Shown in pieces: positions 1,640 through 16,809 of a stretch of DNA of 16,841 nucleotides (within the stretch, counting starts at the first letter, position 1; every line of letters starts with the position of its first letter). The stretch is taken from positions 1-16,841 of the forward strand of contig NZ_JACHCR010000041.1 of NCBI RefSeq assembly GCF_014205845.1, given 5' to 3'. Source of the stretch: Mucilaginibacter cryoferens (GTDB lineage: Bacteria > Bacteroidota > Bacteroidia > Sphingobacteriales > Sphingobacteriaceae). The notes under the pieces were generated by a model that saw only the letters and a list, made by a program, of their open reading frames with translations, searched no databases and was not told where the DNA came from. The translations under genes were made by a program, and so were the position numbers.

Positions 1640-2653
1640 TTAATCATTTTTTTTTATAGACTTTATTTTTTTAATCTCCTTATCAAAGTCACTTTCAAAG
1701 TTTTGATCCTGAATGCCCCTGAATTTATCGTACTCTTTTTCCACTAATTTTATGGCTACTTCGTGGCTCACCTTCCCTGCATCCTTCAATATTTGATACT
1801 CGTTGAATTGCAAGAATGCATCTAAACGGTTTATCCAGTCGCCCATTTTCATGGGTGTTTGCCTCGATGCCTGTAATTCTGCAAAATCAAGATACATCGT
1901 AACCACCCTCTCCAGTTCTTTGATCTCCTTTTCTATGAGGTAGTTTTTGGCTACACCTATATCACCCTTCAATACTTTCCCGCCGGGCGCATTTTTAAAA
2001 GTTTGCAAACCCATATTAGGTTTATCGGCACTTGCTCTTTCGGCAATGATTTGCGCTGCGGTTTTACCCGATATAGCAAAGTGTAGTTTATTTTGAACAG
2101 TCTTGAAAAACTTTTGGGTTATATCAGCATCCTTGTTATAATCGATGCTACATTGCTCGTATATATCAGTTATTTTAAGGTAAAAGCGCCGTTCGCTGGC
2201 GCGGATCTCCCTAATGCGGTCTAAAAGCTCGTCAAAATAATCTTTGCCAAAACGTTTACCCTGTTTTAATCTTGCATCATCTAAGACAAAACCTTTGACA
2301 ATATATTCCCTAAGTGTTTTAGTTGCCCATATGCGGAACTGTGTAGCCTGATAGCTATTAACCCGGTATCCGACGGCTATGATTGCGTCTAAATTGTAAA
2401 AGGAAGTAAGATACTTTTTACCATCACTGGCAGTTGTTTCCATTTTGGAAACAACTGAATCTTCTTTTAGCTCATTACTTTCGAAAATATTCTTCAAGTG
2501 TTTACTAATGGCGGGCACTTCCACGCCAAAAAGCTCTGATAAACGTTTTTGAGTTAACCAAAACGTTTCATCATTGAAAATTACTTCAATTTTCACATCG
2601 CCCGTAGGAGTGTTGTAAAAAATTATGTCATTAGACTGAGGGTTATCGCTCAT
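1640..2653 (-). CDS. RhuM-family protein (left copy)
   Basis: A 337-residue protein of the virulence RhuM family, whose biochemical role is poorly known. The family signature is clear: an N-terminal part resembling phage antirepressor-type DNA-binding domains (helix-turn-helix-like residues about 34-57), then the blocks TTASDGKKYLTSFYNLDAI and AVGYRVNSYQATQFRIWATK, then LREYIVKGFVLDD. The C-terminal third is helical and ends in a lysine-rich tail. The start ATG at 2653 overlaps the stop of the upstream chimera gene by four bases (ATGA), so the two are probably translationally coupled. RhuM genes are often found beside restriction systems; a second, clearly diverged member lies at 9987-10994. 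Family assignment is firm; any function in defence is inference from context. Confidence 0.88.
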   Translation of the reverse strand: MSDNPQSNDIIFYNTPTGDVKIEVIFNDETFWLTQKRLSELFGVEVPAISKHLKNIFESNELKEDSVVSKMETTASDGKKYLTSFYNLDAIIAVGYRVNSYQATQFRIWATKTLREYIVKGFVLDDARLKQGKRFGKDYFDELLDRIREIRASERRFYLKITDIYEQCSIDYNKDADITQKFFKTVQNKLHFAISGKTAAQIIAERASADKPNMGLQTFKNAPGGKVLKGDIGVAKNYLIEKEIKELERVVTMYLDFAELQASRQTPMKMGDWINRLDAFLQFNEYQILKDAGKVSHEVAIKLVEKEYDKFRGIQDQNFESDFDKEIKKIKSIKKND

Positions 2654-3099
2654 GCTATCGCCTGTTTTATCAAACCAACTATATAATCCAAGTTTTCTAT
2701 ATCGCTTACTATTAATTCATAATCTCCATTGCCATTATGCCCTTTTAAAATTGATACATCTCTCATTAAATTTAAAGGGTCGTTCAATTGGCCTTTCTTT
2801 AAATTAATCCATAATTTGATTGTCTTGTCCTGTATTTCAATATCAACAATGTTGGTTTTCTTTTTAAAGGCGATATAAGTTTTTTTAGGTATAATGTCGA
2901 TTCCTGAGTTGAGTTTTAAGATGGCTTGTTTGAAGGTTTGGTATAACTTAATCACCGCTTCCAGATTTATGGTATCAAATAATTTCATTACGTAAGGCTG
3001 AATCCCGTAATTATCGGTTTCAGCCAAAATAAGCCAGGGTTTGGTTCTCCCCCCGGTCATGATGCGTTCAAACGAGATGGCTTTGTAAACTGGTAGCAA
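2650..3099 (-). CDS. Small chimera: HipA-like N-terminal stub joined to a DUF5655 domain
   Basis: The 149-residue product has two parts. Residues 1-41 (containing ERIMTGGRTKPWL and PYVMKLF) resemble the first strands of HipA-like kinases, with the lysine of the KLF strand. Residues about 45-149 match the DUF5655 domain found at the end of many restriction-associated proteins (blocks KKTYIAFKKKTNIVDIEI, KLWINLKKGQLNDP, HNGNGDYELIV and LDYIVGLIKQA). The rest of a kinase is absent. This looks like a deletion that fused two genes in frame; it may be functional or a remnant. The only start that keeps the HipA-like segment is TTG at 3097-3099, with an in-frame stop shortly upstream; the first ATG would remove residues 1-13. 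It is coupled to the RhuM gene by a four-base overlap. Domain names are from memory of the families, not a search. Confidence 0.65.
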   Translation of the reverse strand: MLPVYKAISFERIMTGGRTKPWLILAETDNYGIQPYVMKLFDTINLEAVIKLYQTFKQAILKLNSGIDIIPKKTYIAFKKKTNIVDIEIQDKTIKLWINLKKGQLNDPLNLMRDVSILKGHNGNGDYELIVSDIENLDYIVGLIKQAIA

Positions 3100-3386: not shown

Positions 3387-4313
3387 TTAATTATCTTCTT
3401 CGAAATAATCACTATCTATTTTTTTAATCTCATACATTCGTTGCGGTGAAACTCCAAGATTATAGTCTATCATTAGTTGAGTTAATTGCTCGCCATCAAT
3501 AAGTACAATTTTTGTTTCGTTGCGTGGCATGTATCCTAGTGCATCTTTAGTAAATGACGAAGTTGTAATAAATATACCTTTTTTAGCGCCTTGTCCGGCC
3601 AAAGCACCAACAAATTTGTGGAGCTCTGGCCGACCAACAACGTTGGATGCTTGCCAGCGTTTTGCCTGGATATATATTATATCTAAACCCAATTTGTCTT
3701 CCTTAATTGTACCATCAATACCTTCATCCCCTGTTTTGCCAATCGCTTTACCTGCATCTTTAATTGATCCGCCATATCCCATCTTGACTAATAGTTCCAC
3801 TACTAACCGTTCAAAGAAAAGCGGTGACAATCGTTTTACAGTGTCTAATAACTCTTGAGCTAATGACTGCCGAATTGCCTGGTATGAGTTTTCTATCGTT
3901 TCTTCCGGCGTTTGCTTATCTGTTTCGCGTAATACCTCAATTGAAGAAATTTTTTCCCCTTCTTCTCTTTTTAAGCTTTGAAAATCAACAAACTCAGAAA
4001 ATCGCCTTAAAAGTGTATTGTCAATTTTTTTTGGTTTCTCTTTTAAAACTGCCAAACCCCTTGAAGTAATTGCTAATGCTCCACGTTTAGGCGAATCAAG
4101 AAGCCCCGCTTTTTTCAAATATGTACGCGCCCATCCTACGCGATTTGAAAAAAGGAATGCTTGCCCACTCGGTAGCAATTCTTTTAATTCATCTTCAGAC
4201 AGCTTAAATTCAATCGCTAATATTTCAACAATATCTTTGAATAAATAAGTTTTTTTGTCGGCAACTTGCCTTAAGAGGGGCAGCATTACCGATTGATAAT
4301 CAGGTATGGGCAT
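3387..4313 (-). CDS. mrr: Mrr-type modification-dependent restriction endonuclease
   Basis: A 308-residue protein with the two-domain Mrr layout. Residues about 1-95 form a winged-helix N-terminal (Mrr_N) domain. Residues about 160-285 form the Mrr nuclease domain, with core GDEGIDG (195-201), catalytic-type QAK at 216-218 and the flanking block FFERLVVELLVKMGYGG. This is the PD-(D/E)XK variant in which Q replaces the usual acidic residue, typical of Mrr. Family members cut DNA bearing foreign methylation (type IV restriction). The length is normal and the active-site residues are intact. The gene starts 47 bases after the invertase gene in the same direction, so both may be on one mRNA that ends at 3251-3277. 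Its closeness to a switching methyltransferase is notable, because Mrr enzymes can turn on self DNA when methylation changes. Confidence 0.9.
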   Translation of the reverse strand: MPIPDYQSVMLPLLRQVADKKTYLFKDIVEILAIEFKLSEDELKELLPSGQAFLFSNRVGWARTYLKKAGLLDSPKRGALAITSRGLAVLKEKPKKIDNTLLRRFSEFVDFQSLKREEGEKISSIEVLRETDKQTPEETIENSYQAIRQSLAQELLDTVKRLSPLFFERLVVELLVKMGYGGSIKDAGKAIGKTGDEGIDGTIKEDKLGLDIIYIQAKRWQASNVVGRPELHKFVGALAGQGAKKGIFITTSSFTKDALGYMPRNETKIVLIDGEQLTQLMIDYNLGVSPQRMYEIKKIDSDYFEEDN

Positions 4314-4360: not shown

Positions 4361-4957
4361 TTAGCCCGCTGCATCTTTAATGAACGATGAAACTGTTAGT
4401 CGATGCACTCCTAAAATCCTGCCAATTGCACTATATGATATTTTTTTCTTTATCAGCGATTGAATTTCATCCTCCTTACCCGTTAGTTTTCGGGTTTGTG
4501 ATCTACTACCTTTAGGTCGTCCCAATATTTGTCCTTCAGCTTTACGTCTTGCTAATGCTTCCTTGGTGCGCTGAGATATCAGGTTTCTTTCAATTTCTGC
4601 CGATAGGCCAAATGCGAATGCCAATACTTTTGAATTAATATTGTTGCCTAATTCATAATTCTCTTTAACGGTATAAACCATAACATCCTTCTCCATACAA
4701 TCGTGTAGAATTTTCATAATCTGCATCAAGTTCCGGCCCATACGGGAAAGTTCGGAAACTATAAGTACATCCCCTTTTTTCATACGGTTCAGTAATTCTC
4801 CAAATTTACGTACGTCAAGTTTCTTAGTTGAGCTAATAGTTTCCTCAATCCATTCGTCTATTACTAAATGTTTAAGATCGGCAAATTTTAAGATTTCGTA
4901 GCGCTGGTTTTCTGTTGTTTGCTTGTCGGTGCTAATGCGGATGTATCCGTATTTCAT
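4361..4957 (-). CDS. Serine site-specific recombinase (DNA invertase)
   Basis: A 198-residue member of the resolvase/invertase family. Residues 1-140 form the catalytic domain: YIRISTDKQT with nucleophile Ser9 and Arg7, SELSRMGRN (68-76) with the conserved active-site arginines, and AEIERNLISQRTKEAL (120-135) forming the start of the long dimer helix. The C-terminal DNA-binding helix-turn-helix lies at about 160-193 (SYSAIGRILGVHRLTVSSFI). Size and domain order are those of small invertases such as Hin, Pin and the Bacteroides Mpi type, not of large phage integrases. It begins 94 bases outside an inverted repeat that bounds a segment with two alternative 3' ends of a restriction-modification gene, so its likely job is to invert that segment. 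It reads away from the segment and is not itself flipped, so its expression should not depend on the switch state. Confidence 0.92.
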   Translation of the reverse strand: MKYGYIRISTDKQTTENQRYEILKFADLKHLVIDEWIEETISSTKKLDVRKFGELLNRMKKGDVLIVSELSRMGRNLMQIMKILHDCMEKDVMVYTVKENYELGNNINSKVLAFAFGLSAEIERNLISQRTKEALARRKAEGQILGRPKGSRSQTRKLTGKEDEIQSLIKKKISYSAIGRILGVHRLTVSSFIKDAAG

Positions 4958-5050
4958 GATTGTTTAGTTTATTAATGGATTTTATTTAGACTGTAAGGAG
5001 ATAGTATAATAAAAATATGCCATAAATAGCTTCACTGTTTTATGAAAAAC

Positions 5051-5071
5051 AATGAGCGTTTATGTTAGGCA
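5051..5071 (+). repeat. Left inverted repeat of the invertible segment
   Basis: The 13-base core AATGAGCGTTTAT is identical to the minus strand at 6824-6844. The following eight bases differ at only two positions (GTTAGGCA here, ATTAGTCA there). The core includes an ATG and the next three codons in the reading frame of both cassettes, so crossover anywhere inside it keeps the frame. Weak similarity (GTTT and GAAAAA blocks) continues outside the segment. Proposed recombination site for the adjacent invertase. Confidence 0.8.
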
Positions 5072-5984
5072 GAACATAAATGTTACAAATAATCTTTCCA
5101 GTAAAAATAGTTGGATTATCTCGAATGAAATCGCGGCAAAAATAAAAGCCAAAATTGAAGCAGTCGGGATACCGTTAGCAAAATGGGATATTCAGATTAA
5201 CTATGGTATTAAAACAGGTTATAATGAAGCATTTATAATTGACCAAGCAAAACGTGATGAATTATTACGAATATCTCCCGAATCTGATCAAATTATACGT
5301 CCGATTCTTCGCGGCAGAGATATAAAAAAATATCTGTTAAATGATGAAAAATTGTTTTTACTATTTATTCCATGGCATTTTCCATTACACAATGACAATA
5401 CAGAAAAAGGTGTGTCTCAAAAAGCCGAAGCTTTATTTAAGAGTGAATATCCAGCTGTGTATGACCATTTGCTAAAATTTAAATCCCAGCTAGAACTACG
5501 GAATAAAGCAGAAACCGGAATAAGATACGAATGGTACGCGCTACAGAGGTTTGGCTCTAATTATTGGGAGGAGTTTGACAAACCCAAAATTATTTATCCA
5601 AACATGACGAAATTTTTGCCATTTTATTACGACACAAATGGGTTTTATACGAATCAAAAATGTTTTGTCATTACAGGCTTTCATATAGAATACTTAACTG
5701 CGTTCCTTAATTCTTCTATTTTTAAATTCTGTTTTCGTGAAAATTTCCCTGAATTACAGGGAGGAACGAGAGAATTAAGTAAAGTGTTTTTTGATTTAAT
5801 TCCAGTAAAACAGATTGATGACGAAATCAATAATGTTTTTAAAAAGAAGGTTGACCAAGTCCAATTTTTAAAAAGACAAGGAATCGAAACAATTAGTGTT
5901 GAAAAAGAGATAGATAGTATTTTATTCGATTTATATGAATTGACTATCGAGGAAAGAGAAGCTATTGGATTTTTCGAAATTTAA
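5052..5984 (+). CDS. Silent alternative C-terminal specificity cassette of the Type IIG enzyme
   Basis: 310 codons homologous to residues 970-1262 of the leftward Type IIG gene but on the opposite strand. Residues 1-94 match the scaffold region, with the invariant blocks WII (21-23), TGYNEAFIIDQ (55-65) and IIRPIL (81-86). Residues about 95-280 hardly match and should contain a different target recognition domain (TaqI-like C-terminal specificity type). There is no methyltransferase or nuclease motif, so it cannot be a complete enzyme. An in-frame TGA at 5043-5045, nine bases before the ATG, and the lack of a visible ribosome site argue that it is stored rather than translated. Its end overlaps the expressed cassette tail to tail by 23 bases (5962-5984). 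It is intact, with no frameshift or stop, which implies recent selection and hence recent use through inversion. Confidence 0.88.
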   Translation: MSVYVRQNINVTNNLSSKNSWIISNEIAAKIKAKIEAVGIPLAKWDIQINYGIKTGYNEAFIIDQAKRDELLRISPESDQIIRPILRGRDIKKYLLNDEKLFLLFIPWHFPLHNDNTEKGVSQKAEALFKSEYPAVYDHLLKFKSQLELRNKAETGIRYEWYALQRFGSNYWEEFDKPKIIYPNMTKFLPFYYDTNGFYTNQKCFVITGFHIEYLTAFLNSSIFKFCFRENFPELQGGTRELSKVFFDLIPVKQIDDEINNVFKKKVDQVQFLKRQGIETISVEKEIDSILFDLYELTIEEREAIGFFEI

Positions 5985-8900
5985 TGTTATTGATATAACC
6001 TATCTCATCATTTGTTAAACCATACATTTGATAAACAAATTGATCAATTTGTAGTTCAATACTTTGGTCGTTATTTATTTTTGAAATATTTAATAATTTT
6101 AATAGTTTTTCTTGGTCATCAAAAGAAATGTCCGGTACAGGTAGTTGCTCTACGAACATTGGTTTATATTCGAAATAGCCACCGTTTCGGGTGACACCTA
6201 ATTGTTTTATATAAAAATCAGCAAGTTTAGAATTTAATATTGCGATAAGATAAACTTGATCAGTGGCTATAAAAGAAGAAGGCGCATTAATATAGTAACC
6301 TGCGTCTACGAGAGCAAATTGCCCCTTTAAAGCTAAATTTCCCCACGCTATTTTTTGTTTTTCAAAGTCTTTGTAATACGCCACATTGTCTTGAATCTCA
6401 AACCATTTATACGGCCCCGGTTTTCTTCCCGTAGATTCATTATTATTTCGAGGGCGTAGACTACTATAATAGGCTTCTAAGTGCGCTTTAATAACAGGAT
6501 ATTTCTCTATATCAATTCCTTTTCGTGTGAATATAATCCATTTGTTATCCCAGTTAAACTGATAACGCTTAATGTTTTTGCCAGACAAAATCGGACGTAT
6601 AATTTCTGCATTTTTAGGTGAAGATGCGACCAATATATCTCTTGTGTTTTGATCAATTATGAATGCTTCGTTATAACCTGTGAGAATACCTCTATAAATA
6701 TTGATATCCCAATCTTTCAATGGCGTTCCGACTCTTTCGATCTTGTTTTTTATCTCAGCTTCTAAAGCTGATAGTATTATCCAGCCATTTTCCGCTTTGA
6801 AGCCTTTTTGCACAGTTCTGCGTTGACTAATATAAACGCTCATTTTTTCTAAACTACCTAAACTTTTATCAAGCAGGCAGGTTTCAGTTGATCCACCGTA
6901 TGGCGTGTTCTGACAAATCAAAATGTTCGCATCAACTGTTGCCGATTCAAATACCTGAAAGCCACCGAAATCTATTAATAATAAAGGATTGGTATGTTCC
7001 AAAAAGAATCTACGGGTGGCCTCGCCGTAATTTGCTCTCATCCATTTATTAGAGGTGATATATCCAAAAAAGTAACCGGGTTTTAAAAGCCGCTGAGCTT
7101 GCTCGTAAAATAAACAATAGATATCGCCGGTACGTGTAAATGTTTTATAGCCACATTTCTGCAATACATCCGCATCGGCTCCCATCTTTTGTAATTGGAT
7201 GTAAGGTGGATTTCCGATAATAACTTCGAAACCTTCAAAGTCCCCTTTTTCGTCCAATACTTCCGGGAACTCAAAACGCCATTCAAATGCGTTGCGATAT
7301 AAGGCATTGTTTTCTATCTCTTTTATTTCAAGTTCGATCTTATCAATGTTCAATGTAAGACGTCGAACTTCTAATTCCATCTCTTTTTGAGAACGTTTTT
7401 GCCCAAAGAGATCAAAATTATTTTGAGCTAACGCATGTTGACCTCTCAATTCAGAAAGTCTTTTTCGACGTGGATCTCGGCGACCTACTGTTTCATGGAA
7501 TTGGTCTTTTATCTTTTTTATAAACTCTTTTAATTCTTCTTTCGCAACCTTATCCGAAGCTTCTTTATACGCTTGAACCGCAGTTTGATAATCAAAAACA
7601 CTAAATTTTTGCTTGCGAAAAACTTCTGATAAATCTTCTGTTAACGAATACTTGCTTAATAATGAATTGCCCTGTTTAATATTAATATCAATATTGGGTA
7701 GCGTTTCTAACTCGATATAGTCGCCTGGCTTGTAATAGGTATGTTTTAGTAGCTCAATCCATAAACGCAAACGGCAAATTTTTACTGAGTTAGGATTGAT
7801 ATCTACACCGAATAAGCAATGCTCAATGATTTTTCTTTTTTCTTCAAACAGCGTACTTTGTATCCGTTGTTCTGAGCTCGAAATTACGTTGCCTCTATCC
7901 GAAGTTGACTTTATGGAGTAATCAAAAAACTTTAGTGTATCGGGATAAACAACTACTAATTCATCATTAGCTATACTAACTTCAATTTCTGATAGGCAGC
8001 TGCCGGATGCATCTGCCAAAATTCCTAATTCGGATTTTATGCTAATAATTTCGTTTAATCCAGAAACAAGAAAGTGACCAGAACCGACAGCAGGGTCGGC
8101 TATTTTGATATCATTTATTAGTTCATTAAATTTTAGGATATCTTTAGTATTACGTTTCTCACGTAAATAGTTTTTTAAATCGCTGATGGTTTCGCATTCC
8201 CAGCTATAGGCATCGTTGAATTTTTTTAGAACAGCTTTGCGTATAGTTTCACGACATAAAAAAGTGGTGATAGCCCCGGGTGTATAAATAGAACCATCTT
8301 TATAGCCATTGATTTTTTCAAACACCAACCCCAATACAGCGGCGTTAATAATTGTTTTATTCTCTTCCTGTACTTCTTCCTTACCTATGGATGCAAAGTT
8401 GTACGCGTCTAAAAAGTCAAATAGGTAATGTAGCGTTCTTTTGCTACTGACATCTTTATTATTGCCTGCTCGTTTAAGAACAGAATTAGCGTATAGATCA
8501 ATATTTGAATTATCATCAAGTGCATTAACCTTAATAGTGTATTCTTCCAGGTCGGAAAACTCAAAAAGTGAACTATTTAAATAAGGTATGTGACTGTATT
8601 TGCTTTGTATGATGGCAGATCGGTCTTTAGCTTGTTTAGCTAAAACCTGGAAAAATAATTTATATAATTCGCTGTAATCGTTAACTACCTGTTGATTTAG
8701 AAAGCGGTATTTGCGGTCACCTTTATGATATTTAATTAGTTGCGCTTCAAGTAGCTTTAAAAAGAGTATCCTGTTAACCCAAGTAATGCTCAATTCTAAC
8801 GCCGCGTTAAATAATTGTTCTTCGGTGGTATCGCCTTGTAAATATTGGTTAGGTGTTTTACGCAATGAATTTTCAACCTCTAAAATATTGATAGCGTTTT

Positions 8901-9750
8901 CAATAAAAGATGCCGGATGTCGTTTCCCCTCCGGTAAACGGCGGATGATTTTACGCCCGCCATCCTTCACTTCCTCTAACCCAATTATGTGTAATAACTC
9001 GCTGAAAAAGCCTTTATCCAATGAATTGCTGTCATTTAAAAAAGGCAATTTCAAAAGATTGACCGGAGTGAAAAATTTGTAAAGAGGTATTAGCTCATTA
9101 TCATTACTTTTATTTAAAAGAGGCAGAAACTTTTTAAGGTCGAAATAAGTAAAGCTTATTTCATTATCAAAAAGATCTAAAAATGGTTTAGCTATCTCCT
9201 TATAGAAATGATCTGTAGAGGCACTTACTTTTTGCTTGTTCTCCCATTCGTTAAATGTCTTTAGTAACTGTTTATTTTCATTGAATATTCTTTCAAATAT
9301 TGTAGCGTCAAAAATAAACCATTCATAAATATTGGTAATTACTAAATGGGTTAATGAGTTATTTTTATCTTTTGACCTTTCACGCAGATAATATAAAATT
9401 AGCTCGTGCATTGCCTTGGTGTTCAGGTTGGTTTGAGTAACCATATCGGCTTTGTTGTTTGGGCGTTTAACTTCAAACAATACACCTGCGGCAGTAGTGG
9501 CGTCCTTGCCTAAATGTATAACAAAATCGGTTTTACCTTTAGTCGCTATTAAATGATCGGGATTGTAAAATGTATTTTTCAAAAAATCCATTAGGTGGAT
9601 TTTTACATTCTCTTCACTTTCTTTTTCGTCTATCAAACCCAGCATCAGTTGCAGGTTCTTTTTAAATTGGTCGAGATCAACCCGGCGTGGACTTATCAAT
9701 CGATAAGCCTTGTTCAGGCTTGCTTTTAACTCGGCAATGTTTATGGTCAT
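5962..9750 (-). CDS. Type IIG restriction-modification enzyme (Eco57I-like), phase-variable specificity
   Basis: A 1262-residue single-chain enzyme expected to both cut and N6-adenine-methylate DNA at one recognition site. Domains in order: an N-terminal PD-(D/E)XK-type nuclease (TDFVIHL with Asp75, then FEVKRP with Glu93 and Lys95); a helical connector; a gamma-class methyltransferase with SAM motif DPAVGSGHF (552-560), acidic loop FGVDINP (647-653) and catalytic NPPY (847-850); a charged helical insert at about 720-815; and a C-terminal TaqI-like specificity region from about 970. The presence of a nuclease motif separates it from BREX PglX methylases, which are of similar size. Met970 lies exactly at the inverted repeat (6843), so everything after it belongs to the invertible segment; after inversion the protein would have 1279 residues. 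No separate methylase or specificity gene is nearby. All key residues are intact, so it looks active. The AT-rich sequence is consistent with horizontal gain. Confidence 0.93.
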   Translation of the reverse strand: MTINIAELKASLNKAYRLISPRRVDLDQFKKNLQLMLGLIDEKESEENVKIHLMDFLKNTFYNPDHLIATKGKTDFVIHLGKDATTAAGVLFEVKRPNNKADMVTQTNLNTKAMHELILYYLRERSKDKNNSLTHLVITNIYEWFIFDATIFERIFNENKQLLKTFNEWENKQKVSASTDHFYKEIAKPFLDLFDNEISFTYFDLKKFLPLLNKSNDNELIPLYKFFTPVNLLKLPFLNDSNSLDKGFFSELLHIIGLEEVKDGGRKIIRRLPEGKRHPASFIENAINILEVENSLRKTPNQYLQGDTTEEQLFNAALELSITWVNRILFLKLLEAQLIKYHKGDRKYRFLNQQVVNDYSELYKLFFQVLAKQAKDRSAIIQSKYSHIPYLNSSLFEFSDLEEYTIKVNALDDNSNIDLYANSVLKRAGNNKDVSSKRTLHYLFDFLDAYNFASIGKEEVQEENKTIINAAVLGLVFEKINGYKDGSIYTPGAITTFLCRETIRKAVLKKFNDAYSWECETISDLKNYLREKRNTKDILKFNELINDIKIADPAVGSGHFLVSGLNEIISIKSELGILADASGSCLSEIEVSIANDELVVVYPDTLKFFDYSIKSTSDRGNVISSSEQRIQSTLFEEKRKIIEHCLFGVDINPNSVKICRLRLWIELLKHTYYKPGDYIELETLPNIDINIKQGNSLLSKYSLTEDLSEVFRKQKFSVFDYQTAVQAYKEASDKVAKEELKEFIKKIKDQFHETVGRRDPRRKRLSELRGQHALAQNNFDLFGQKRSQKEMELEVRRLTLNIDKIELEIKEIENNALYRNAFEWRFEFPEVLDEKGDFEGFEVIIGNPPYIQLQKMGADADVLQKCGYKTFTRTGDIYCLFYEQAQRLLKPGYFFGYITSNKWMRANYGEATRRFFLEHTNPLLLIDFGGFQVFESATVDANILICQNTPYGGSTETCLLDKSLGSLEKMSVYISQRRTVQKGFKAENGWIILSALEAEIKNKIERVGTPLKDWDINIYRGILTGYNEAFIIDQNTRDILVASSPKNAEIIRPILSGKNIKRYQFNWDNKWIIFTRKGIDIEKYPVIKAHLEAYYSSLRPRNNNESTGRKPGPYKWFEIQDNVAYYKDFEKQKIAWGNLALKGQFALVDAGYYINAPSSFIATDQVYLIAILNSKLADFYIKQLGVTRNGGYFEYKPMFVEQLPVPDISFDDQEKLLKLLNISKINNDQSIELQIDQFVYQMYGLTNDEIGYINNIKFRKIQ
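6824..6844 (-). repeat. Right inverted repeat of the invertible segment, inside the Type IIG gene
   Basis: Read on the minus strand it begins AATGAGCGTTTAT, followed by ATTAGTCA, matching the plus strand at 5051-5071 with two differences over 21 bases. It encodes Met-Ser-Val-Tyr at residues 970-973 of the enzyme, at the junction between the methyltransferase core and the specificity region, an ideal place for a domain swap. Confidence 0.8.
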
Positions 9751-9986: not shown

Positions 9987-10994
9987 CTAACCTTCCCGTT
10001 TCTTTTGGGGTGTTATTCTTTTTATGCTTTTATCAATTTGCTTTAAAAAATGTTTTTCAGCTTCCGAAATGTTGTTTTTGGCTTGTTCTTTATATTTTTC
10101 AAACTCCGTTTTAGCTTTTTTTAAAGCCTGGTCATGACTAATGGTACCGGCATTTTGCAAAATCTCATTCCCTGTCATCCGTACAAAATCATCCAAACGG
10201 GCTATCCAGTCTTTCATATACATTGGTTTCCTGTTTAGCGCCTGGAGTTCGGCCAGTTCCAAATAGGCAGTTACCATGCGGTTTAGCACATTCAATTCGT
10301 TTTCGTCGAGATAGTTTTTTGCAATTTCAACTTCCTGGCGCGTGGGTTTGATTCCTTTTATGTGTGTAAGGCCAAGATTTGTTTTTGTGGCATCTATACG
10401 TTGGTAAATTATTTCGGCAGCGGTGTGGCCATGGGCAGCCCAATGCATTTTATTTTGTACGGTTTGAAAAAAGAGTACAGAAATTTCAAGTTTAGGGTCG
10501 TAATCAATACTGGTAGCGTAAATGTCAAGTACTTTGCGCCAAAATACCTTTTCGGATGATCGTATATCACGGATGCGGGCAAGTAATTCTTCAAAATAGT
10601 TTCCGCCTCCGGCTTGTTTTAACAGGTCATCGTTCATTGTAAAACCTTTCACAATGTATTCCCGCAGTCGCGCTGTAGCCCATTGGCGAAATTTGGTGCC
10701 TTGATGGCTTTTTACGCGGTAGCCAACGGAAATAATTACATCAAGGTTGTAAAATGTTGTATCATAATTTTTATTGTCTGTTGCAGTTGTTCGGAATTTC
10801 CGAACAACTGAACTTTCGTCAAGTTCAGCCTCGTCAAAAATATTTTTAATGTGTTCACTAATCGTAGATTTAGCTTTTTGAAAGAGTTCTACTAATTGTC
10901 CTTGTGTAAGCCAAACAGTTTCATCTTCCAGGCGGGTTTCAATTTTTGTATTGCCGTCTTCGGTTTGGTATATGATTATCCTGCTATCATCCAT
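9987..10994 (-). CDS. RhuM-family protein (right copy)
   Basis: A 335-residue paralogue of the gene at 1640-2653, with the same blocks: an N-terminal DNA-binding-like segment (ETVWLTQGQLVELFQKAKST), FYNLDVIISVGYRVKSHQGT, FRQWATARLREYIVKGFTM, the middle block FFQTVQNKMHWAAHGHTAAE, and a lysine-rich C-terminus. The two proteins agree strongly in these blocks but differ widely elsewhere, so this is not a recent duplication. The start is well supported: ATG at 10992-10994 with an AAGGAG ribosome site seven bases upstream, the clearest in the window. It is the first gene of the leftward island and lies directly upstream of the Type IIG gene. A role in regulating or assisting the restriction system is possible but unproven. 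Confidence 0.88.
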   Translation of the reverse strand: MDDSRIIIYQTEDGNTKIETRLEDETVWLTQGQLVELFQKAKSTISEHIKNIFDEAELDESSVVRKFRTTATDNKNYDTTFYNLDVIISVGYRVKSHQGTKFRQWATARLREYIVKGFTMNDDLLKQAGGGNYFEELLARIRDIRSSEKVFWRKVLDIYATSIDYDPKLEISVLFFQTVQNKMHWAAHGHTAAEIIYQRIDATKTNLGLTHIKGIKPTRQEVEIAKNYLDENELNVLNRMVTAYLELAELQALNRKPMYMKDWIARLDDFVRMTGNEILQNAGTISHDQALKKAKTEFEKYKEQAKNNISEAEKHFLKQIDKSIKRITPQKKREG

Positions 10995-11001
10995 GATTTA
11001 A

Positions 11002-11029
11002 CTCCTTGTTAGGGATTTAAACGAAGATA
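11002..11029 (-). promoter_or_regulatory. Ribosome binding site and candidate -7 element of the right RhuM gene
   Basis: On the minus strand AAGGAG (11007-11002) precedes the ATG by seven bases. Further upstream TATCTTCG (11029-11022) matches seven of eight positions of the Bacteroidota -7 consensus TAnnTTTG. A convincing -33 TTTG was not seen, so the ribosome site is firm but the promoter is tentative. Confidence 0.5.
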
Positions 11030-11161
11030 CTAAAAGCAATAGCATTTAAATAATTATTTGCGCCTGTGCTTCCCCTACCAATAGATGTTTTGCTGAGCTA
11101 TAGGTATTTAACCACATACAAATCAAAACACCTTTGCAAAGTCCGAAGCCCACGATTACCG

Positions 11162-11255
11162 CCGCAGCTTCGCGTTAGTGATGGAAGTGGATACCGGCCC
11201 CGCGCCTAATGCCTTGTGCGCGTATGAACGTACAGCACGGCCCGAAGGGAACGCT
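11162..11255 (+). repeat. Dispersed intergenic repeat, copy 2
   Basis: It starts CCGCAGCTTCGCGTT, contains TGGATACCGGCCC, TAATGCC and GCGTATGAA, and ends in a reduced hairpin CCC-GAA-GGG followed by AACGCT. It matches the minus strand of 1323-1424 over its whole length. Its position, 168 bases beyond the first island gene, makes it the right-hand partner of the inverted pair around the defence island. No ORF is present. Confidence 0.75.
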
Positions 11256-11426
11256 CTTTAAATTCAAAAGTTAAAAGTCAAAATTCAAAAAGGAAAGGGA
11301 ACGTTCATTAGTTCACTGGTTGATTAGTTTGTTGGTGGATAGTTTGATAGCGCTTTTGATAGGCATAAGGTTGCATTATATGAGTATTCCAGGCCCTTAA
11401 GCGCCTGCCAATCATCGTCTATTCAA
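11256..11426. other. Intergenic filler before the asd promoter
   Basis: AT-rich sequence with short internal repeats (AATTCAAAA occurs twice near 11260-11290, joined by AGTTAAAAGTC). No gene or RNA is visible. It lies between the right repeat of the island and the chromosomal gene asd, so the island boundary should be at or near here. Confidence 0.4.
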
Positions 11427-11465
11427 CTACCAAATTGGTAGATTATATAAAAATGTGCATATTTG
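11427..11465 (+). promoter_or_regulatory. Candidate asd promoter with overlapping dyad operator
   Basis: TTGG at 11435-11438 and CATATTTG at 11458-11465 are separated by 19 bases and each differ by one base from the Bacteroidota -33 (TTTG) and -7 (TAnnTTTG) elements, in the expected spacing. A perfect dyad CTACCAA-A-TTGGTAG (11427-11441) covers the -33 element, where a repressor could act. The asd start follows 35 bases after the -7 element. Confidence 0.45.
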
Positions 11466-11499
11466 GGGTTTAGAGTTTATTATTTAACAAATTAACACA

Positions 11500-12507
11500 A
11501 TGAAAATCGCAGTTGTAGGTGCTACCGGCTTGGTAGGTACCAAAATGTTGCAGGTTCTGGCAGAACGCAACTTCCCCGTTACAGAATTAATTCCCGTAGC
11601 TTCCGCTAAAAGTATTGGTAAAGAAATTACTTTTAAGGGTAAGCAGTATAAGGTGGTTTCTGTTGAGGATGCGATTAAGATGAAGCCGGATGTTGCTATT
11701 TTTAGCGCCGGCGGCAGCACTTCATTGGAGCAGGCTCCGCTTTTTGCGGCGGCCGGTACTACGGTTATTGATAACTCGTCGGCCTGGCGTATGGACCCAA
11801 CCAAAAAACTGGTTGTGCCCGAAGTTAATGCCGATGTATTAACTGCCGAAGATAAAATTATTGCCAACCCAAATTGCTCAACCATACAAATGGTGGTGGC
11901 GCTAAAACCGCTGCACGATAAATATAAAATTAAAAGGGTGGTGGTTTCTACCTATCAATCTGTAACCGGTACGGGTGTTAAAGCTGTTGACCAGCTGTTT
12001 AACGAGCGTAAAGGTATTGACGGACCGAAGGTTTACCCATACCAGATAGACCTGAACGTAATCCCTCAGATTGATGTTTTCACCGACAACGGTTACACCA
12101 AAGAGGAGATGAAAATGATACTGGAAACCCAAAAGATTATGGGCGACAACAGTATTAAGGTTACCGCTACTACGGTGCGCATCCCGGTTATGGGCGGTCA
12201 CTCGGAGTCGGTTAATATTGAGTTTTTGCACGATTTTGATTTGGGCGAAGTGCGCGAGCTGCTGGCTGCGTCGCCGGGTATTGTGGTGGTTGATGATACG
12301 GCCAACCTTAAATACCCAATGCCGTTAGACGCGCACGATAAAGACGAGGTTTTTGTAGGCCGGTTACGCCGCGACGAAAGTCAGGCCAATACCCTAAACT
12401 GCTGGATAGTATCAGACAACCTGCGCAAAGGTGCTGCTACCAACGCCGTACAAATTGCCGAGTACCTGGCTGCCAAGCATTTGATAGGCGCGCCGGTAGA
12501 GGCGTAG
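11500..12507 (+). CDS. asd: Aspartate-semialdehyde dehydrogenase
   Basis: A 335-residue cytosolic enzyme that reduces L-aspartyl 4-phosphate to L-aspartate 4-semialdehyde with NADPH, the branch point to lysine (and diaminopimelate for the cell wall), threonine and methionine. Seen: N-terminal dinucleotide-binding motif GATGLVG (7-13), DNSSAWRMD (91-99), active-site NPNCST with nucleophile Cys126, and RIPVMGGHSESV with the substrate arginine (228) and catalytic histidine (234). Length and residues are complete. The start ATG at 11500 follows an AT-rich leader and puts the Rossmann strand at the usual place. It is preceded by its own candidate promoter and followed by two terminators, so it is probably a single-gene transcript. 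It marks the return to ordinary, higher-GC chromosome after the island. Confidence 0.97.
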   Translation: MKIAVVGATGLVGTKMLQVLAERNFPVTELIPVASAKSIGKEITFKGKQYKVVSVEDAIKMKPDVAIFSAGGSTSLEQAPLFAAAGTTVIDNSSAWRMDPTKKLVVPEVNADVLTAEDKIIANPNCSTIQMVVALKPLHDKYKIKRVVVSTYQSVTGTGVKAVDQLFNERKGIDGPKVYPYQIDLNVIPQIDVFTDNGYTKEEMKMILETQKIMGDNSIKVTATTVRIPVMGGHSESVNIEFLHDFDLGEVRELLAASPGIVVVDDTANLKYPMPLDAHDKDEVFVGRLRRDESQANTLNCWIVSDNLRKGAATNAVQIAEYLAAKHLIGAPVEA

Positions 12508-12517
12508 CCTCACCCAC

Positions 12518-12540
12518 CCCTCTCCAAAGGAGAGGGCTTT
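12518..12540 (+). terminator. Hairpin after asd
   Basis: CCCTCTCC (12518-12525) pairs with GGAGAGGG (12529-12536) around AAA and is followed by a short T run. It starts ten bases after the asd stop. I recall this CCCTCTCC-AAA-GGAGAGGG hairpin as common between genes in related genomes, so it may also be a repeat. Confidence 0.7.
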
Positions 12541-12554
12541 AAGAAGATAATTTG

Positions 12555-12590
12555 AATAGGGATACCCACACGGTTATCCCTATTTTTATT
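12555..12590 (+). terminator. Second Rho-independent terminator after asd
   Basis: A perfect 10-bp stem, AATAGGGATA (12555-12564) with TATCCCTATT (12575-12584), is followed by TTTATT. Together with the hairpin at 12518-12540 it gives asd a double terminator and insulates the next gene. Confidence 0.8.
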
Positions 12591-12652
12591 TGATAGCTAT
12601 AAATTGTAACTATTATTTATCATTGCAGCGGTTTTTTACTAACTTGTTACCA

Positions 12653-13435
12653 ATGAAAGCCTTTAAGCTAATCGTTGTTTTATGTTGCTGTTTGGTTACG
12701 GCAAAGGTATCGGCCCAAAATATCAGCAGTCCGCAGGCTATCGAGGCCGATCTGCTGCGGATTTTTAACCGGGTTAATTATTATGGTAACCACAAAAAGG
12801 AGTGGAAGGCTGTTGATTCGCTCAAAAAGATGAACAGTATGTTTGCCTACAAGCTTAAATATTATACATCTAAATATCCGTTCACTATCGATCTGAAGTT
12901 TACGTCGCTGGTTAAAGAGCGGCTGGTGATCGCTACATCGGCCGATGGCCAGTTTCGTACCTACTCCTGGGATACCCGGTTGGGTACCACTGGATACGAT
13001 TTTGATAATATACTGCAATACAAGGTTGGCGGGCAAACGCTATCGCTGTTAAAAATGGATGCGCCGGGTAAGGAGGCTTACTGGTTTCCGAAGATATACA
13101 CGCTGGTAGCTAATAACAAAACGGTGTACCTGGCGGTTTATAATTCTATATTATCGGCCACCAAAGCGGGGCAGGGTATAAGGGCTTATGCCATTGAAAA
13201 AGGAGTGTTGAACGGTAGGGTGCCGATGGTTAAAACCCCCACCGCGGTGCTGAGTAGGCTGTATTACGAGTACAGCCTGCAATCGGTAGCCGACTGGGAC
13301 ACTTTCCCCAGTATTACTTTTGATAGCAAGGCCAAAGTTATCCTCACCCCACTGGTTGACTATAAAGGCAACATGACCCGCAAGTTTATCACCTACAGAT
13401 TTAACGGGCAGTTTTTTGAGAAGGTAAAAAGTTAA
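12653..13435 (+). CDS. Secreted protein of unknown function
   Basis: A 260-residue product not recognised as any named family. The N-terminus is a clear signal peptide: MKAFK, a hydrophobic stretch with three cysteines, then a probable signal peptidase I site after VSA (mature protein starting QN). The body is rich in aromatic residues and beta-type segments, as in exported Bacteroidota proteins, with no transmembrane segment, repeat or catalytic motif that I can see. I chose ATG at 12653 because it places the signal peptide at the N-terminus; a TTG in the same frame at 12590 would add 21 residues that overlap the asd terminator. It ends five bases before the HicB-like gene. Probably periplasmic or surface-exposed. 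Confidence 0.75.
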   Translation: MKAFKLIVVLCCCLVTAKVSAQNISSPQAIEADLLRIFNRVNYYGNHKKEWKAVDSLKKMNSMFAYKLKYYTSKYPFTIDLKFTSLVKERLVIATSADGQFRTYSWDTRLGTTGYDFDNILQYKVGGQTLSLLKMDAPGKEAYWFPKIYTLVANNKTVYLAVYNSILSATKAGQGIRAYAIEKGVLNGRVPMVKTPTAVLSRLYYEYSLQSVADWDTFPSITFDSKAKVILTPLVDYKGNMTRKFITYRFNGQFFEKVKS

Positions 13436-13440
13436 TATAT

Positions 13441-13626
13441 ATGGATAAAATAACCTTCCTTATTGAACGTGCGGAAGAAGGTGGATTTAACGCGAGGGCT
13501 ATAAACCAATCTATATTTACCCAGGCAGAAACGTTGGCACTACTTGAAATTAATATTGCTGACGCCATTGAATGCCATTTTGACGATATTCGTCCCGGCT
13601 TTGAATTAAAGTTAGTTGATCTATGA
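13441..13626 (+). CDS. HicB-like small protein (orphan antitoxin candidate)
   Basis: A 61-residue protein with the fold signature of the HicB-like N-terminal domain: ITFLIERAEEGGFNARAI, then SIFTQAETLALLEINIADA and ECHFDD. Members of this type normally precede a HicA mRNA-cleaving toxin gene and neutralise it. Here no HicA follows. An ATG overlaps the stop (ATGA at 13623-13626), as expected for a coupled partner, but the frame leaves coding-like sequence within ten codons, enters the palindromic repeat at 13653 and stops at about 13718. The C-terminus is shorter than I expect for the family. The gene may be a leftover of a broken toxin-antitoxin pair. Homologues are sometimes mislabelled as 2-oxoisovalerate dehydrogenase subunits; there is no such enzyme here. 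Confidence 0.6.
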   Translation: MDKITFLIERAEEGGFNARAINQSIFTQAETLALLEINIADAIECHFDDIRPGFELKLVDL

Positions 13627-13652
13627 AGCTGTGTAAAAACACAAAAGCATAC

Positions 13653-13749
13653 CGTCATTGCGAGGTACGAAGCAATCTCTACACAGGCAGGTTGGAAATG
13701 CAAATCCTCTCTGTATAGCATAGAGATTGCTTCGTGCCTCGCAATGACG
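13653..13749. repeat. Palindromic dispersed repeat (REP-like), complete copy
   Basis: The 28-base arms 13653-13680 and 13722-13749 are inverted copies with one mismatch. The arms read CGTCATTGCGAGG(T/C) then ACGAAGCAATCTCT. The 41-base centre has further weak pairing. This CATTGCGAGG...GAAGCAATC unit recurs at the end of this window (16810-16841). It lies between the HicB-like gene and the LysR gene and may work as a two-way transcription barrier. Confidence 0.88.
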
Positions 13750-13810
13750 CTTGAATATATGTTTCATTAGAACTACAAAAGCATTAATAAATCAAATTTA
13801 GACAACCTCT

Positions 13811-14710
13811 ATGATCTCTTTCGCTCACCGTGTTTTTATGGAAGTTGCTGCCAATTTGAGTTTCTCAAAGGCGGCACAGGTGCTGTTTGTAACCCAGCCG
13901 GCCATCAGCAAGCACATTAAAGCGTTAGAAGATCAGTACAAAGTGCCGCTGTTTGAACGCAAGGGCAACAGCATATTACTTACCGAAGCCGGTAAAAAGC
14001 TGAACGAATACCTGCAGCAGGCCACCGAAATTGAACGTAAAATTGAGTACGATCTATCGGTGCTCAGCAACCTGTCGCAAGCGGCGGGGCATTTGCGTTT
14101 GGGGGCCAGTACTACCATCGCGCTGTATATATTGCCATCTATACTATCGGGCTTTCAGCGCGAATATGCCAATGTAGATATTCAGCTGGTGAACCGTAAC
14201 TCCGAGTATATTTTAAACGCGCTGCTTAACCATGAGGTGGATATTGGCATTATTGAGGTAGATAATAAGCTTACCACGGTATCGTATAAGCCGTTTATGA
14301 GTGATGAGGTGATTCCGGTATGTTCGGCAAAAAGTCCGCTGGCGGGGCGGTCGTTAAGTTTAAAGCAGTTTGTAAAAACACCGCTGGCAGTAAGGGAGCG
14401 TGGTTCGGGTACGTTGAACGCGGTGTTAAAGTCGCTTTCGGCGCTGCATATTAAACCGGCCGACTTATCGGTAAAAATCCGTCTGGGCGGCACCGAGGCG
14501 CTTAAAAACTTTCTGCTGGCCGATCAGTGCCTGGGCTTTATGCCCCGCCCATCCATCATCCGCCAGCTGGCCGAAGGCGACCTGGTTGAAGTACCTGTAG
14601 AAGGATTAAAAATAACCCGCGATTTCTTCTTCATCCGCCGTAAAGGCACCGAAGATTACGGGCTCACGAGTAATTTTATCAATTACGCGCTACAGCATAT
14701 TGAGTCTTAA
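13811..14710 (+). CDS. LysR-type transcriptional regulator
   Basis: A 299-residue protein of standard LysR length and layout. Residues 1-60 form the winged helix-turn-helix, with the typical block SFSKAAQVLFVTQPAISKHI and ALEDQYKVPLFER. A linker helix follows, then from about 90 to 290 the two-lobed effector-binding domain (LRLGASTTIALYILPSIL, VDIGIIE and GLTSNFINYAL). It is expected to act as a tetramer on a nearby promoter after binding a small ligand. LysR genes often lie divergent from their target, but upstream here is the palindromic repeat and a rightward gene, so the target is not apparent and may be elsewhere or its own gene. The ATG at 13811 puts the HTH at the normal distance from the N-terminus. 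Confidence 0.93.
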   Translation: MISFAHRVFMEVAANLSFSKAAQVLFVTQPAISKHIKALEDQYKVPLFERKGNSILLTEAGKKLNEYLQQATEIERKIEYDLSVLSNLSQAAGHLRLGASTTIALYILPSILSGFQREYANVDIQLVNRNSEYILNALLNHEVDIGIIEVDNKLTTVSYKPFMSDEVIPVCSAKSPLAGRSLSLKQFVKTPLAVRERGSGTLNAVLKSLSALHIKPADLSVKIRLGGTEALKNFLLADQCLGFMPRPSIIRQLAEGDLVEVPVEGLKITRDFFFIRRKGTEDYGLTSNFINYALQHIES

Positions 14711-14825
14711 GTTGTAGGTCGGAGGTTTTAAGTTGGAAGTTTTAGGTCGGAAGTCCCAAGTCAGACTTTTCTCTTTTCTATACTTAGAACGTAACACTTA
14801 AAACGTCCAACATAAGAATCCAGAC
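14711..14825. repeat. Degenerate short tandem repeats between convergent genes
   Basis: Imperfect repeats of AGGTCGGAGGTTTTAAGTTGG-like units (AGGTCGGA at about 14716 and 14745, with AAGTTGGAAG between), then a C- and T-rich tail. No coding potential. It lies between the ends of the LysR gene and bshA and could pair into weak stems, but no standard terminator is clear. Confidence 0.5.
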
Positions 14826-15989
14826 TTAAGCTAAATTACCCTTACACTTCTCCACTTTACCTTTGCATTTCTCAATCACTTCCAGGTAATAGTTTTCGTA
14901 AACGGGCAATATGGTTGCCAGGTCGAACTGTTTGGCGCGGGCAAGGGCGTTATTTTTAAAAGTTTCCAGGCGGGCTTCGTCTTCCAGTATGTAGATGGCT
15001 TTGGCGGCCATGGTGTCAACATCGCCAACATCACATAAAAAGCCGGTTTCGCCGTCAACATTCAGCTCGGGCAAACCGCCGGCGTTGCTGCTTATTACGG
15101 GTACCTTGCAGGCCATGGCCTCTAAGGCTGCCAAACCAAAACTTTCTGATTGCGATGGCATCAGGAAAAGGTCGGCTACCGAGAGGATCTCTTCAATGGC
15201 ATCCTGCTTGCCCAAAAAGCGTACGTTGTCGGTAACACCCAGGTCGCGGCACAGCTGTTCGCAGCCAGAGCGTTCGGGACCGTCGCCTACCATCAGCAGT
15301 TTGGATGGGATAGTTTTAACCACTTGGGCAAATATCTTCACCACATCTTCGGTACGTTTTACCTTGCGGAAGTTGGAGGTATGCACCAGCACTTTTTCGC
15401 CCGATGGGGCTATAGCTTTTTTAAAGTGATCTTTGGCTTTGAGGCTAAAACGGTTAAGATCTATAAAGTTGGGGATCACCTTAATATCGTTCTCTATCTC
15501 AAAAAACTTATAGGTATCCTCGCGCAGGTTTTCTGATACGGCGGTTACACCGTCGGATTTATTGATGGAGAAGGTAACCACCGGCTTAAACGTACGATCT
15601 TTACCCACCAGGGTAATATCGGTACCGTGCAGCGTGGTAACCACCGGGATATAAATACCATAAGTTTCCAGTATCTGCTTGGCCATAAAGGCCGCCGAGG
15701 CATGCGGAATGGCGTAATGCACGTGCAGTACATCCAGCTTCTCGTGGCGCACCACATCAACCAGTCGGCTGGCCAGGGCCAGTTCATAGGGCGGAAAATC
15801 AAACAGCGGATAATTACTTACCGAAACCTCGTGGTAAAACAGGTTTTCGGAAAAAAGATCCAGGCGTGCAGGCTGGTTATAGGTAACAAAATGCACCTGG
15901 TGACCGCGGTCTGCAAGGGCTTTACCAAGTTCAGTAGCAACCACTCCGCTTCCGCCGAAGGTTGGGTAACAAACAATTCCGATCTTCAT
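14826..15989 (-). CDS. bshA: N-acetyl-alpha-D-glucosaminyl L-malate synthase (bacillithiol synthesis)
   Basis: A 387-residue GT-B fold family 4 glycosyltransferase. It joins GlcNAc from UDP-GlcNAc to L-malate, the first step to bacillithiol, the low-molecular-weight thiol of Bacillota and many Bacteroidota. Seen: the N-terminal glycine loop PTFGGSGVVATELG (10-23), HVHYAIPHA (89-97), LHGTDITLVG (120-129), VSENLRED (151-158), and in the C-terminal domain the EX7E-type motif SESFGLAALEAM with Glu282 and Glu290. These blocks are characteristic of BshA among related glycosyltransferases. The last 15 residues contain a duplicated EKCKG(K/N) unit with two cysteines (375 and 382), probably encoded by captured repeat DNA. 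The gene is divergent from the VOC-protein gene; bshB and bshC are not in the window. Confidence 0.93.
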   Translation of the reverse strand: MKIGIVCYPTFGGSGVVATELGKALADRGHQVHFVTYNQPARLDLFSENLFYHEVSVSNYPLFDFPPYELALASRLVDVVRHEKLDVLHVHYAIPHASAAFMAKQILETYGIYIPVVTTLHGTDITLVGKDRTFKPVVTFSINKSDGVTAVSENLREDTYKFFEIENDIKVIPNFIDLNRFSLKAKDHFKKAIAPSGEKVLVHTSNFRKVKRTEDVVKIFAQVVKTIPSKLLMVGDGPERSGCEQLCRDLGVTDNVRFLGKQDAIEEILSVADLFLMPSQSESFGLAALEAMACKVPVISSNAGGLPELNVDGETGFLCDVGDVDTMAAKAIYILEDEARLETFKNNALARAKQFDLATILPVYENYYLEVIEKCKGKVEKCKGNLA

Positions 15990-16112
15990 TTATGTGTTAT
16001 AATTCGCTGCAAGTTTAACAGCAATTTATGGCAAATGTGTTACCACTGTGTAAAATCATTTAACTTAGTTAACTTGTTTTTACAAATCAATTACCTACAA
16101 ATATAACCTACT
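15990..16112. promoter_or_regulatory. Divergent promoter region of bshA and the VOC gene
   Basis: A 123-base AT-rich gap between two divergent starts (bshA ATG ending at 15989, VOC ATG at 16113). It must contain both promoters. Several near matches to TAnnTTTG occur (for example TAAACTTG on the minus strand) but none has a -33 partner at the right spacing, so I do not mark exact elements. Confidence 0.5.
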
Positions 16113-16535: not shown

Positions 16536-16620
16536 TTTTTGGGGAGCAAGGATTTAGGCAGCAAGGAGCAAGGAGTAAAGATTTTTGGAGTAAGGATTTT
16601 TGGATGATGGATTTTTCAGG
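16536..16620. repeat. Degenerate purine-rich repeats after the VOC gene
   Basis: Imperfect units such as GGAGCAAGGA, GGAGTAAAGATTTTTGG and GGAGTAAGGATTTTTGG follow one another. They are of the same loose kind as those at 14711-14825. No gene. Confidence 0.5.
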
Positions 16621-16624
16621 GTGT

Positions 16625-16668
16625 CCGTCCGCTTTGGGGTATCGGTGTTTGGGCGGACGGGGGGCTTT
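16625..16668 (+). terminator. Probable terminator of the VOC gene
   Basis: CCGTCCGC (16625-16632) pairs with GCGGACGG (16653-16660), followed by GGGGCTTTT. The loop is 20 bases and the T run is short, so termination is likely but not certain. It is 89 bases after the stop codon. Confidence 0.55.
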
Positions 16669-16673
16669 TGGGT

Positions 16674-16757
16674 TTTAAAACTATGTGATTGGGAGATTAC
16701 GTTTAATTCGTAAAGAAAGTTCTGATAGTCAATGCTTTAAAACTATGTCATTGCGAG
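16674..16757. repeat. 22-base direct repeat pair
   Basis: TTTAAAACTATGTGATTGGGAG at 16674-16695 (written here as TTTAAAACTATGTG plus ATTGGGAG) recurs at 16736-16757 with two substitutions. The second copy runs into CATTGCGAG, the starting word of the palindromic repeat family. Confidence 0.65.
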
Positions 16758-16796: not shown

Positions 16797-16809
16797 CTTA
16801 AAAAAAGAC

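Follow-up and report, generated by a model that had tools for sequence, protein, structure and literature searches.

Invertible Type I hsdS loci, e.g. pneumococcal cod/SpnIII, generate several methylation specificities through inversions among recognition segments, and in BREX systems inversion concerns PglX, an adenine methyltransferase with an invertible specificity part. Gene-altering programmed inversions, in which part of a gene is exchanged for a silent alternative, were reportedly described by Milman in 2023, Type II restriction-modification systems included. In Bacteroides fragilis, the master DNA invertase Mpi inverts promoters at numerous loci. Here we analyze a locus of Mucilaginibacter cryoferens in which the gene of a single-chain Type IIG restriction-modification enzyme lies beside a serine invertase gene and a silent alternative for its recognition part. 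The DNA studied (hereafter the window) is one entire contig of 16,841 bases (NZ_JACHCR010000041.1) from a genome totaling 6.95 Mb. Whereas a separate S subunit changes in Type I hsdS loci, nuclease, methyltransferase, and recognition reside here in one chain beside an Mpi-type serine invertase. Unlike PglX, the window protein has its own nuclease-like domain and its PglX score is below the cut-off; and the invertase, although of the same family as Mpi (NF009949), adjoins a putative coding-sequence switch instead.

Among Type IIG enzymes, the phase-variable Cj0031 is turned ON or OFF by the length of a simple-repeat tract (PMC12456177). It shares with our locus, as proposed below, a Type IIG activity varying within a population, but its switch is tract length; simple repeats are all that is named in the passages of the Type II section of this 2025 review. 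In Prevotella intermedia 17F, the Type IIG gene Pin17FIII (22231-25584) faces a convergent gene, Pin17FORF9595 (25608-26525; PMC5608340). From these printed coordinates, the products have 1117 and 305 amino acids and the genes are 23 base pairs (bp) apart, an arrangement that resembles the window by layout only. The methylome of this strain comprises GGNYAG, CCNYAG, and GGYGAB; cloned Pin17FIII gave GGYGAB only, and no methylation was obtained from the convergent gene by itself or gained through its co-expression (PMC5608340). For the motifs left over, the authors suggested further genes of the system as a possible source; unlike our reading of the window, the passages of that paper considered here propose no inversion.

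The initial annotation had interpreted the M. cryoferens locus as an invertase-driven Type IIG specificity switch, which is supported by its anatomy, its reading frames, and its recurrence in relatives. Together with the alternative module couplings found in relatives, all read from sequence, these features make it very probable that the locus is a programmed, invertase-driven shuffler of the specificity of the Type IIG enzyme, working at two kinds of site, A and B. The features are as follows, in window coordinates.

4361-4957, minus strand: Mpi-family serine DNA invertase, 198 amino acids, outside the invertible segment (NCBIfam NF009949)
5051-5063, plus strand: site A, silent copy, 13-bp inverted repeat
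5052-5289, plus strand: silent N-module N2, K-type (QINYGIKTG)
5290-5306, plus strand: site B, silent copy, exact 17-bp repeat
5307-5984, plus strand: silent V-module V2 including the stop codon, TaqI_C specificity domain (Pfam TaqI_C at silent-half residues 84-252)
5962-9750, minus strand: Type IIG restriction-modification enzyme, 1262 amino acids, N1(R-type)-V1 as sequenced, with nuclease, m6A-type methyltransferase, and recognition modules
5965-6588, minus strand: expressed V-module V1, TaqI_C specificity domain (Pfam TaqI_C at residues 1053-1205)
6589-6605, minus strand: site B, expressed copy, AAATTATACGTCCGATT, predicted crossover dinucleotide CC, consensus from 83 copies
6606-6843, minus strand: expressed N-module N1, R-type (NIYRGILTG), residue 970 to site B
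6832-6844, minus strand: site A, expressed copy, AATGAGCGTTTAT, predicted crossover dinucleotide GC, consensus from 36 loci
9031-9750, minus strand: N-terminal endonuclease domain, approximately residues 1-240 (D75, E93-x-K95)

The enzyme shows Pfam matches to DUF7149, DUF7814, Eco57I, and TaqI_C, carries the motifs DPAVGSGHF and NPPY, and matches the PADLOC model REase_MTase_IIG (PDLC03612) with an E value of 7.2e-268. Its nuclease residues D75, E93, and K95 are invariant and the predicted fold is BpuSI-like; sequence and predicted fold thus place nuclease, methyltransferase, and recognition domain in a single chain, as in Type IIG enzymes. Two other identities were rejected: the BREX-1 PglX model, with a cut-off of 500 bits, gives the protein 88.3, and the BREX-2, -5, and -6 models likewise score it far below their cut-offs; and a Type I hsdS inverton does not fit a locus without a separate HsdS subunit, in which the recognition modules form the C-terminus of the Type IIG chain. 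The recombinase scores 327.4 bits with NF009949 ('master DNA invertase Mpi family', cut-off 272) and has its Ser9 within YIRIS. Its gene, the sole match to itself at E ≤ 0.001 across the 6.95-Mb genome, lies 95 bp from site A.

The expressed half of the recognition part has 293 residues and the silent half 310, the latter being an intact open reading frame on the opposite strand with its own ATG (5052-5984, plus strand). The initial annotation had placed a serine invertase, inverted repeats, and these two halves side by side, and we recovered every element at the same positions; its single-chain Type IIG assignment is backed by the Pfam domains and the PADLOC model, and its call of a serine invertase by the NF009949 score. 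It had also held that the halves align ungapped over their leading 94 residues with 52 identities, as is indeed the case, and that inversion of 5051-6844 stays in frame, which we find to give an open enzyme of 1279 residues (969 + 310). Of its repeats, site A stood as described, but a second, longer exact inverted repeat (site B) had been overlooked. In total, three exact inverted repeats of at least 11 bp connect the halves: site A (13 bp), an 11-mer, and site B (AAATTATACGTCCGATT, 17 bp). Both copies of site A read AATGAGCGTTTAT, followed by one mismatch and then TTAG; only 2 sites in the window match ATGAGCGTTTATNTTAG with up to 3 mismatches, where 0.30 are expected and at least 2 occurred in 6 of 200 shuffles. 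Because site B coincides with the end of DNA similarity between the halves (5306) and lies approximately at the start of Pfam TaqI_C (enzyme residue 1053, silent-half residue 84), we divide each half into an N-module (A to B) and a V-module (B to end). N-modules are termed R-type when they contain RG[IV]LTG and K-type when they contain YGIKTG or similar. All four N/V combinations read open (1262, 1279, 1279, and 1262 amino acids), i.e. exchange at the inverted repeats of sites A and B would yield an intact alternative gene, as in an inverton.

In the mechanism we propose, a single Mpi-type invertase would act on two kinds of site with a similar core, TGA-GC-GWTTT for A and CGW-CC-GATT for B (the predicted crossover dinucleotide is set between hyphens). 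An A x A inversion would exchange the entire recognition half and a B x B inversion the V-module only; both junctions being in frame, four enzymes would be possible, N1V1 (as sequenced), N2V2, N1V2, and N2V1. A x B recombination would shift the frame and turn the enzyme off. Cutting and protection should change together because nuclease and methyltransferase share a chain. That the invertase acts on both sites, that the DNA inverts in this strain, and that every isoform recognizes a target of its own are inferred.

The survey of relatives drew on 300 genomes sampled from the order, of which 33 (own genome included) contained a match to the enzyme at E ≤ 1e-30, and on 79 loci that the 80 best among 116 matches in named genomes yielded. 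After removal of 5 recognized duplicates and of loci without a core hit, 109 loci were kept, window included. The complete layout (core, expressed half, opposite-strand half, and invertase, as tblastn hits) occurs in 46 of them, window included, and in 26 others the contig stops no more than 1100 bases past the core. The core falls into two subfamilies, and the nearest named relatives by enzyme are Mucilaginibacter, including M. aquariorum and M. psychrotolerans, whose best segments are 84-85% identical. The complete layout is found in Bacteroidota and in a Helicobacter sp. (L098) and three metagenome-assembled genomes (MAGs), from Lachnospiraceae (L102), Anaerolineales (L148), and Methanomicrobiaceae (L103); these occurrences point to horizontal transfer, with MAG binning errors being possible. 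The locus is also seen on IMG/VR contigs classed as viral (L174-L176), one of which (L176) apparently has part of the V-module inverted in place. Five contigs (L044, L076, L077, L080, and L096) start within about 330 bp upstream of the core gene, where another variable or repeated element could lie. In L080 (M. flavus), the core match stops near residue 946, the invertase follows 50 bp on, and there is no recognition half at the locus, possibly a natural loss form; a clean deletion at site A was rejected, no AGCG being left between 2900 and 3300.

Since assemblies tend to break where arrangements coexist, draft contigs that break at the sites are read here as an indirect sign of coexisting arrangements. 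In G168, a close relative of the window (core 86% and invertase 92% identical), the final 121 bases of the core contig, from site A, are found again past site A of the invertase contig, which itself terminates at the end of site B. Core and invertase contigs both terminate at the end of site A in G089 and at the end of site B in G070, and two further contigs (L091 and L109) terminate exactly at site B. A third site, C, was recognized by the motif GGA[GC]GATTT and YWEDF-like peptides, and tracts of 16-34 bp are shared at it in 16 loci out of as many as 44 examined. In G202, both contigs share 260 bp from site B to their ends at site C, and G306 shows paired breaks at site C. No site C was found in the window, whose two V-modules share no tract of at least 16 bp from 75 bases past site B. 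In 9 of 20 fragmented genomes, the shared tract extends as far as the end of a contig. Sites A, B, or C mark the ends of 9 of 26 contigs on the core side and 7 of 13 on the invertase side, where an end counted if within 25 bases of a site start or if the contig ended in the site B motif (four site B cases by eye); the 13 were chosen from 22 invertase places, after one duplicate genome and the places whose DNA continued past the target recognition region had been dropped. If three targets of 25 bases are assumed in a stretch of about 900, such counts would arise by chance with probabilities of 1.6e-4 (core side) and 3e-5 (invertase side), values that are indicative only because site C was partly defined from such data.

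Relatives also couple the modules differently. Among nine Mucilaginibacter-type loci, V1-like modules (72-75%) accompany an R-type N-module in L041 and L096, as in the window, and a K-type one in L034, while V2-like modules (63-67%) accompany a K-type N-module in L075, as in the window, and an R-type one in L034 and L038. The 6.8-Mb contig of L034 thus has K-V1 expressed and R-V2 silent (V-modules 75% and 66%), the opposite of R-V1 and K-V2 in the window. Two database proteins with closer cores agree with this: P0230 (core 96%), with an R-type N-module 85% like N1 and a V-module 55% like V2, and P0242 (core 82%), with a K-type N-module and a V-module 74% like V1. A Leyella-type set was obtained with the core of P0015 as query, 120 of 8000 matches being listed; its four named entries are Leyella stercorea, and the set is likely one species. 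Among these listed matches, 71 proteins have cores at least 98.5% identical and a full recognition part; their N-modules group into an R and a K cluster, both of which are found with 8 of the 15 V clusters. When V is split at site C into Va and Vb (69 proteins), 2 N, 3 Va, and 6 Vb clusters form 24 of 36 combinations, and all 3 Va clusters are paired with more than one Vb.

Further evidence comes from short proteins of this type. Twelve of 33 Leyella-type proteins shorter than 1000 residues end in NL[ST][DY]SARQ...WV, the out-of-frame product predicted for an A-B hybrid with the left arm of site A and the right arm of site B: 9 have serine (A dinucleotide kept) and 3 threonine (B dinucleotide). 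The in-silico A x B hybrid of L105 encodes NLSDSARQGYQEVWI, then stop, and P0128 looks like a reciprocal A x B product. From these tails, a single recombinase seems to use both sites and to cross over at GC/CC, and A x B exchange may switch the enzyme off. Three other short Leyella-type proteins (P0178, P0212, and P0229) end in NLRIFLSQK after site A and differ from the predicted A x B product.

The two copies of a site are also more alike within a locus than between loci. For site A, alignable in 36 of 46 full loci, the copies agree at 17.06 of 18 positions within a locus vs 13.38 of 18 between loci (0 of 10,000 permutations). For site B, the codons of shared residues were compared in 39 loci with a silent N-module, and the same-codon fraction is 0.86 within vs 0.69 between loci (0 of 2000 permutations). 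The control motif GYNxAF gave 0.45 vs 0.43 (509 of 2000), and the high codon identity between loci is special to site B. The test for site C is weak, with 6 loci parsed (0.80 within, 0.65 between; 167 of 2000).

Several observations weigh against programmed shuffling. The window contig passes unbroken through both sites, the shared tract does not reach a contig end in 11 of the 20 fragmented genomes, and the G306 contigs include runs of N. The Leyella-type proteins are largely 'ena' entries, probably from metagenome assemblies, and short-read chimeras at repeats could mimic swaps. No A x B hybrid was found in DNA; a pattern scan of viral contigs gave 2 hits, which were rejected as unrelated phage-like DNA without enzyme core or invertase. 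Two control motifs are also raised within loci, KIExxGxP (0.64 vs 0.40, 0 of 2000 permutations; 0.50 vs 0.41, 23 of 2000, without 8 long-tract loci) and W[DN]I (0.55 vs 0.47, 136 of 2000), and therefore some ordinary gene conversion contributes. Finally, several Bacteroidales loci contain long identical N-module tracts, up to 279 bp, usable by homologous recombination.

The homogenized control motifs would fit an invertase that acts at site A alone, the identity at site B reflecting protein conservation (EIIRPI) or occasional gene conversion. The 95 bp between site A and the invertase gene, the recurrent layout, and the site A junction in G168 agree with such a one-register switch. We nevertheless consider it unlikely, because site B codon conservation exceeds that of the controls both between and within loci, contigs end exactly at site B (on both sides in G070, and in L091, L109, and G168), L034 has the opposite N-V coupling, and site B is where the silent half starts in L069, L143, and L150, at a distance of 29-56 bp from the invertase gene. 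The long tracts could instead indicate slow module exchange by homologous recombination, in which case the invertase would be a passenger and switching would not be programmed; hsdS genes are well known to undergo RecA-type exchange. This is improbable: the window repeats, at 13 and 17 bp, are short for homologous recombination, the invertase gene is present at 46 of the 109 loci (contig ends truncate many of the others), two versions of the A x B hybrid tail exist that differ at the predicted dinucleotide, and contigs break at the sites in single-genome assemblies.

An intact silent reading frame with its own ATG, as in the window, could also be a separately expressed partner subunit or, alternatively, the silent half could be a decaying remnant. 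In the 10 silent copies compared, however, an ATG at site A is found only in the window's copy (others read e.g. GGAGCG or ACCAGCG), L075 has a homologue as its expressed half, and the convergent P. intermedia gene contributed no methylation, alone or co-expressed (PMC5608340). Of the three alternatives to invertase-driven shuffling, we regard this one as the most remote.

The pairing of N-modules is nearly fixed. Both N-modules are readable in 38 of the 46 full loci, the other 8 being unreadable on at least one side; of the 38, 36 have one R-type and one K-type N-module and 2 have R/R, vs 50% for random pairing (P = 3.6e-9, loci treated as independent). In six loci (L046, L069, L070, L098, L143, and L150), no silent N-module was read, and the expressed one is R-type in all six. 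The family profile aligns with CamA such that the residue before GI corresponds to Gln346 and that before TG to Ile349, with the register checked by Pro166 in NPPY. The two N classes differ at these positions, with Arg/Leu in the R-type vs Tyr/Lys in the K-type; in CamA, Gln346 and Ile349 make contacts with A3:T3, which precedes the methylated A6 by three base pairs (PMC8187626). In the same profile alignment, site B lies near CamA residues 374-375 and site C near 444-445. CamA contacts base pairs 1-3 through Arg425, Gln438, Trp439, and Arg441, and base pairs 4-5 through Tyr455, Ser472, Ala473, and Tyr521 (PMC8187626); by alignment, the Va span would hold the former four contacts and the Vb span the latter four.

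A recognition code can be proposed on this basis, for which we see about as much reason to believe as to doubt. One invertase would shuffle N, Va, and Vb at the in-frame sites A, B, and C, so that a genome could have between 4 (as in the window) and 8 specificities in addition to off-states from A x B exchange, and the modules would contact different base pairs, N setting position -3 from the methylated A, Va the 5' bases, and Vb the bases beside the target. The P. intermedia motifs GGYGAB, GGNYAG, and CCNYAG are three of the four products of {GG,CC} x {YGAB,NYAG}, and if A5 is the target, motif position 2 is -3, the position assigned to the N class. They would then represent the reference state and two single-inversion states, with CCYGAB predicted as the fourth, and module shuffling may explain the unassigned motifs. 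The Rikenella microfusus motifs given in the same paper, CCGACY, CCRGAG, and SCCAAB (PMC5608340), show no simple 2 x 2 fit.

Around the M. cryoferens locus, an Mrr-type Type IV restriction endonuclease (Mrr_N, Mrr_cat) lies directly behind the invertase at 3387-4313 (minus strand), and in Dysgonomonas (L083) a 74% identical relative sits immediately upstream of the Type IIG gene. Two RhuM-family genes on either side of the locus, at 1640-2653 and 9987-10994 (both minus strand), match the PADLOC candidate defence group PDC-S05; with a DUF5655 gene (2650-3099), they look like a small defence island. The G+C content is 34.5% in the switch locus (4361-9750) vs 45.6% from 11001 to 16841, and this lower value may indicate acquisition by transfer.

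In inversion-directed literature searches over CC0, CC BY, and CC BY-SA papers, no listed title or opening of an abstract dealt with multi-site Type IIG shuffling. The 2023 report of Milman is said to cover Type II inversions and is not known to describe two- or three-site modular shuffling, R/K pairing, or base-contact mapping. Inversion of Type II restriction-modification genes as such has thus reportedly been published already, and what appears, within these searches, to be new here is the multi-site modular shuffling, the near-obligate R/K pairing, and the match to base contacts.

If our reading is correct, this would be a defence enzyme that changes its cutting and its self-marking jointly, in several steps, and without a partner subunit, such that cells of one population would restrict different DNA and carry different methylation. 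Published motif assignments that do not fit one gene may be resolved in this way, and draft assemblies can break at such loci. The modular split, matching the base contacts of a solved relative, would offer a readable and testable recognition code and natural interchangeable recognition parts.

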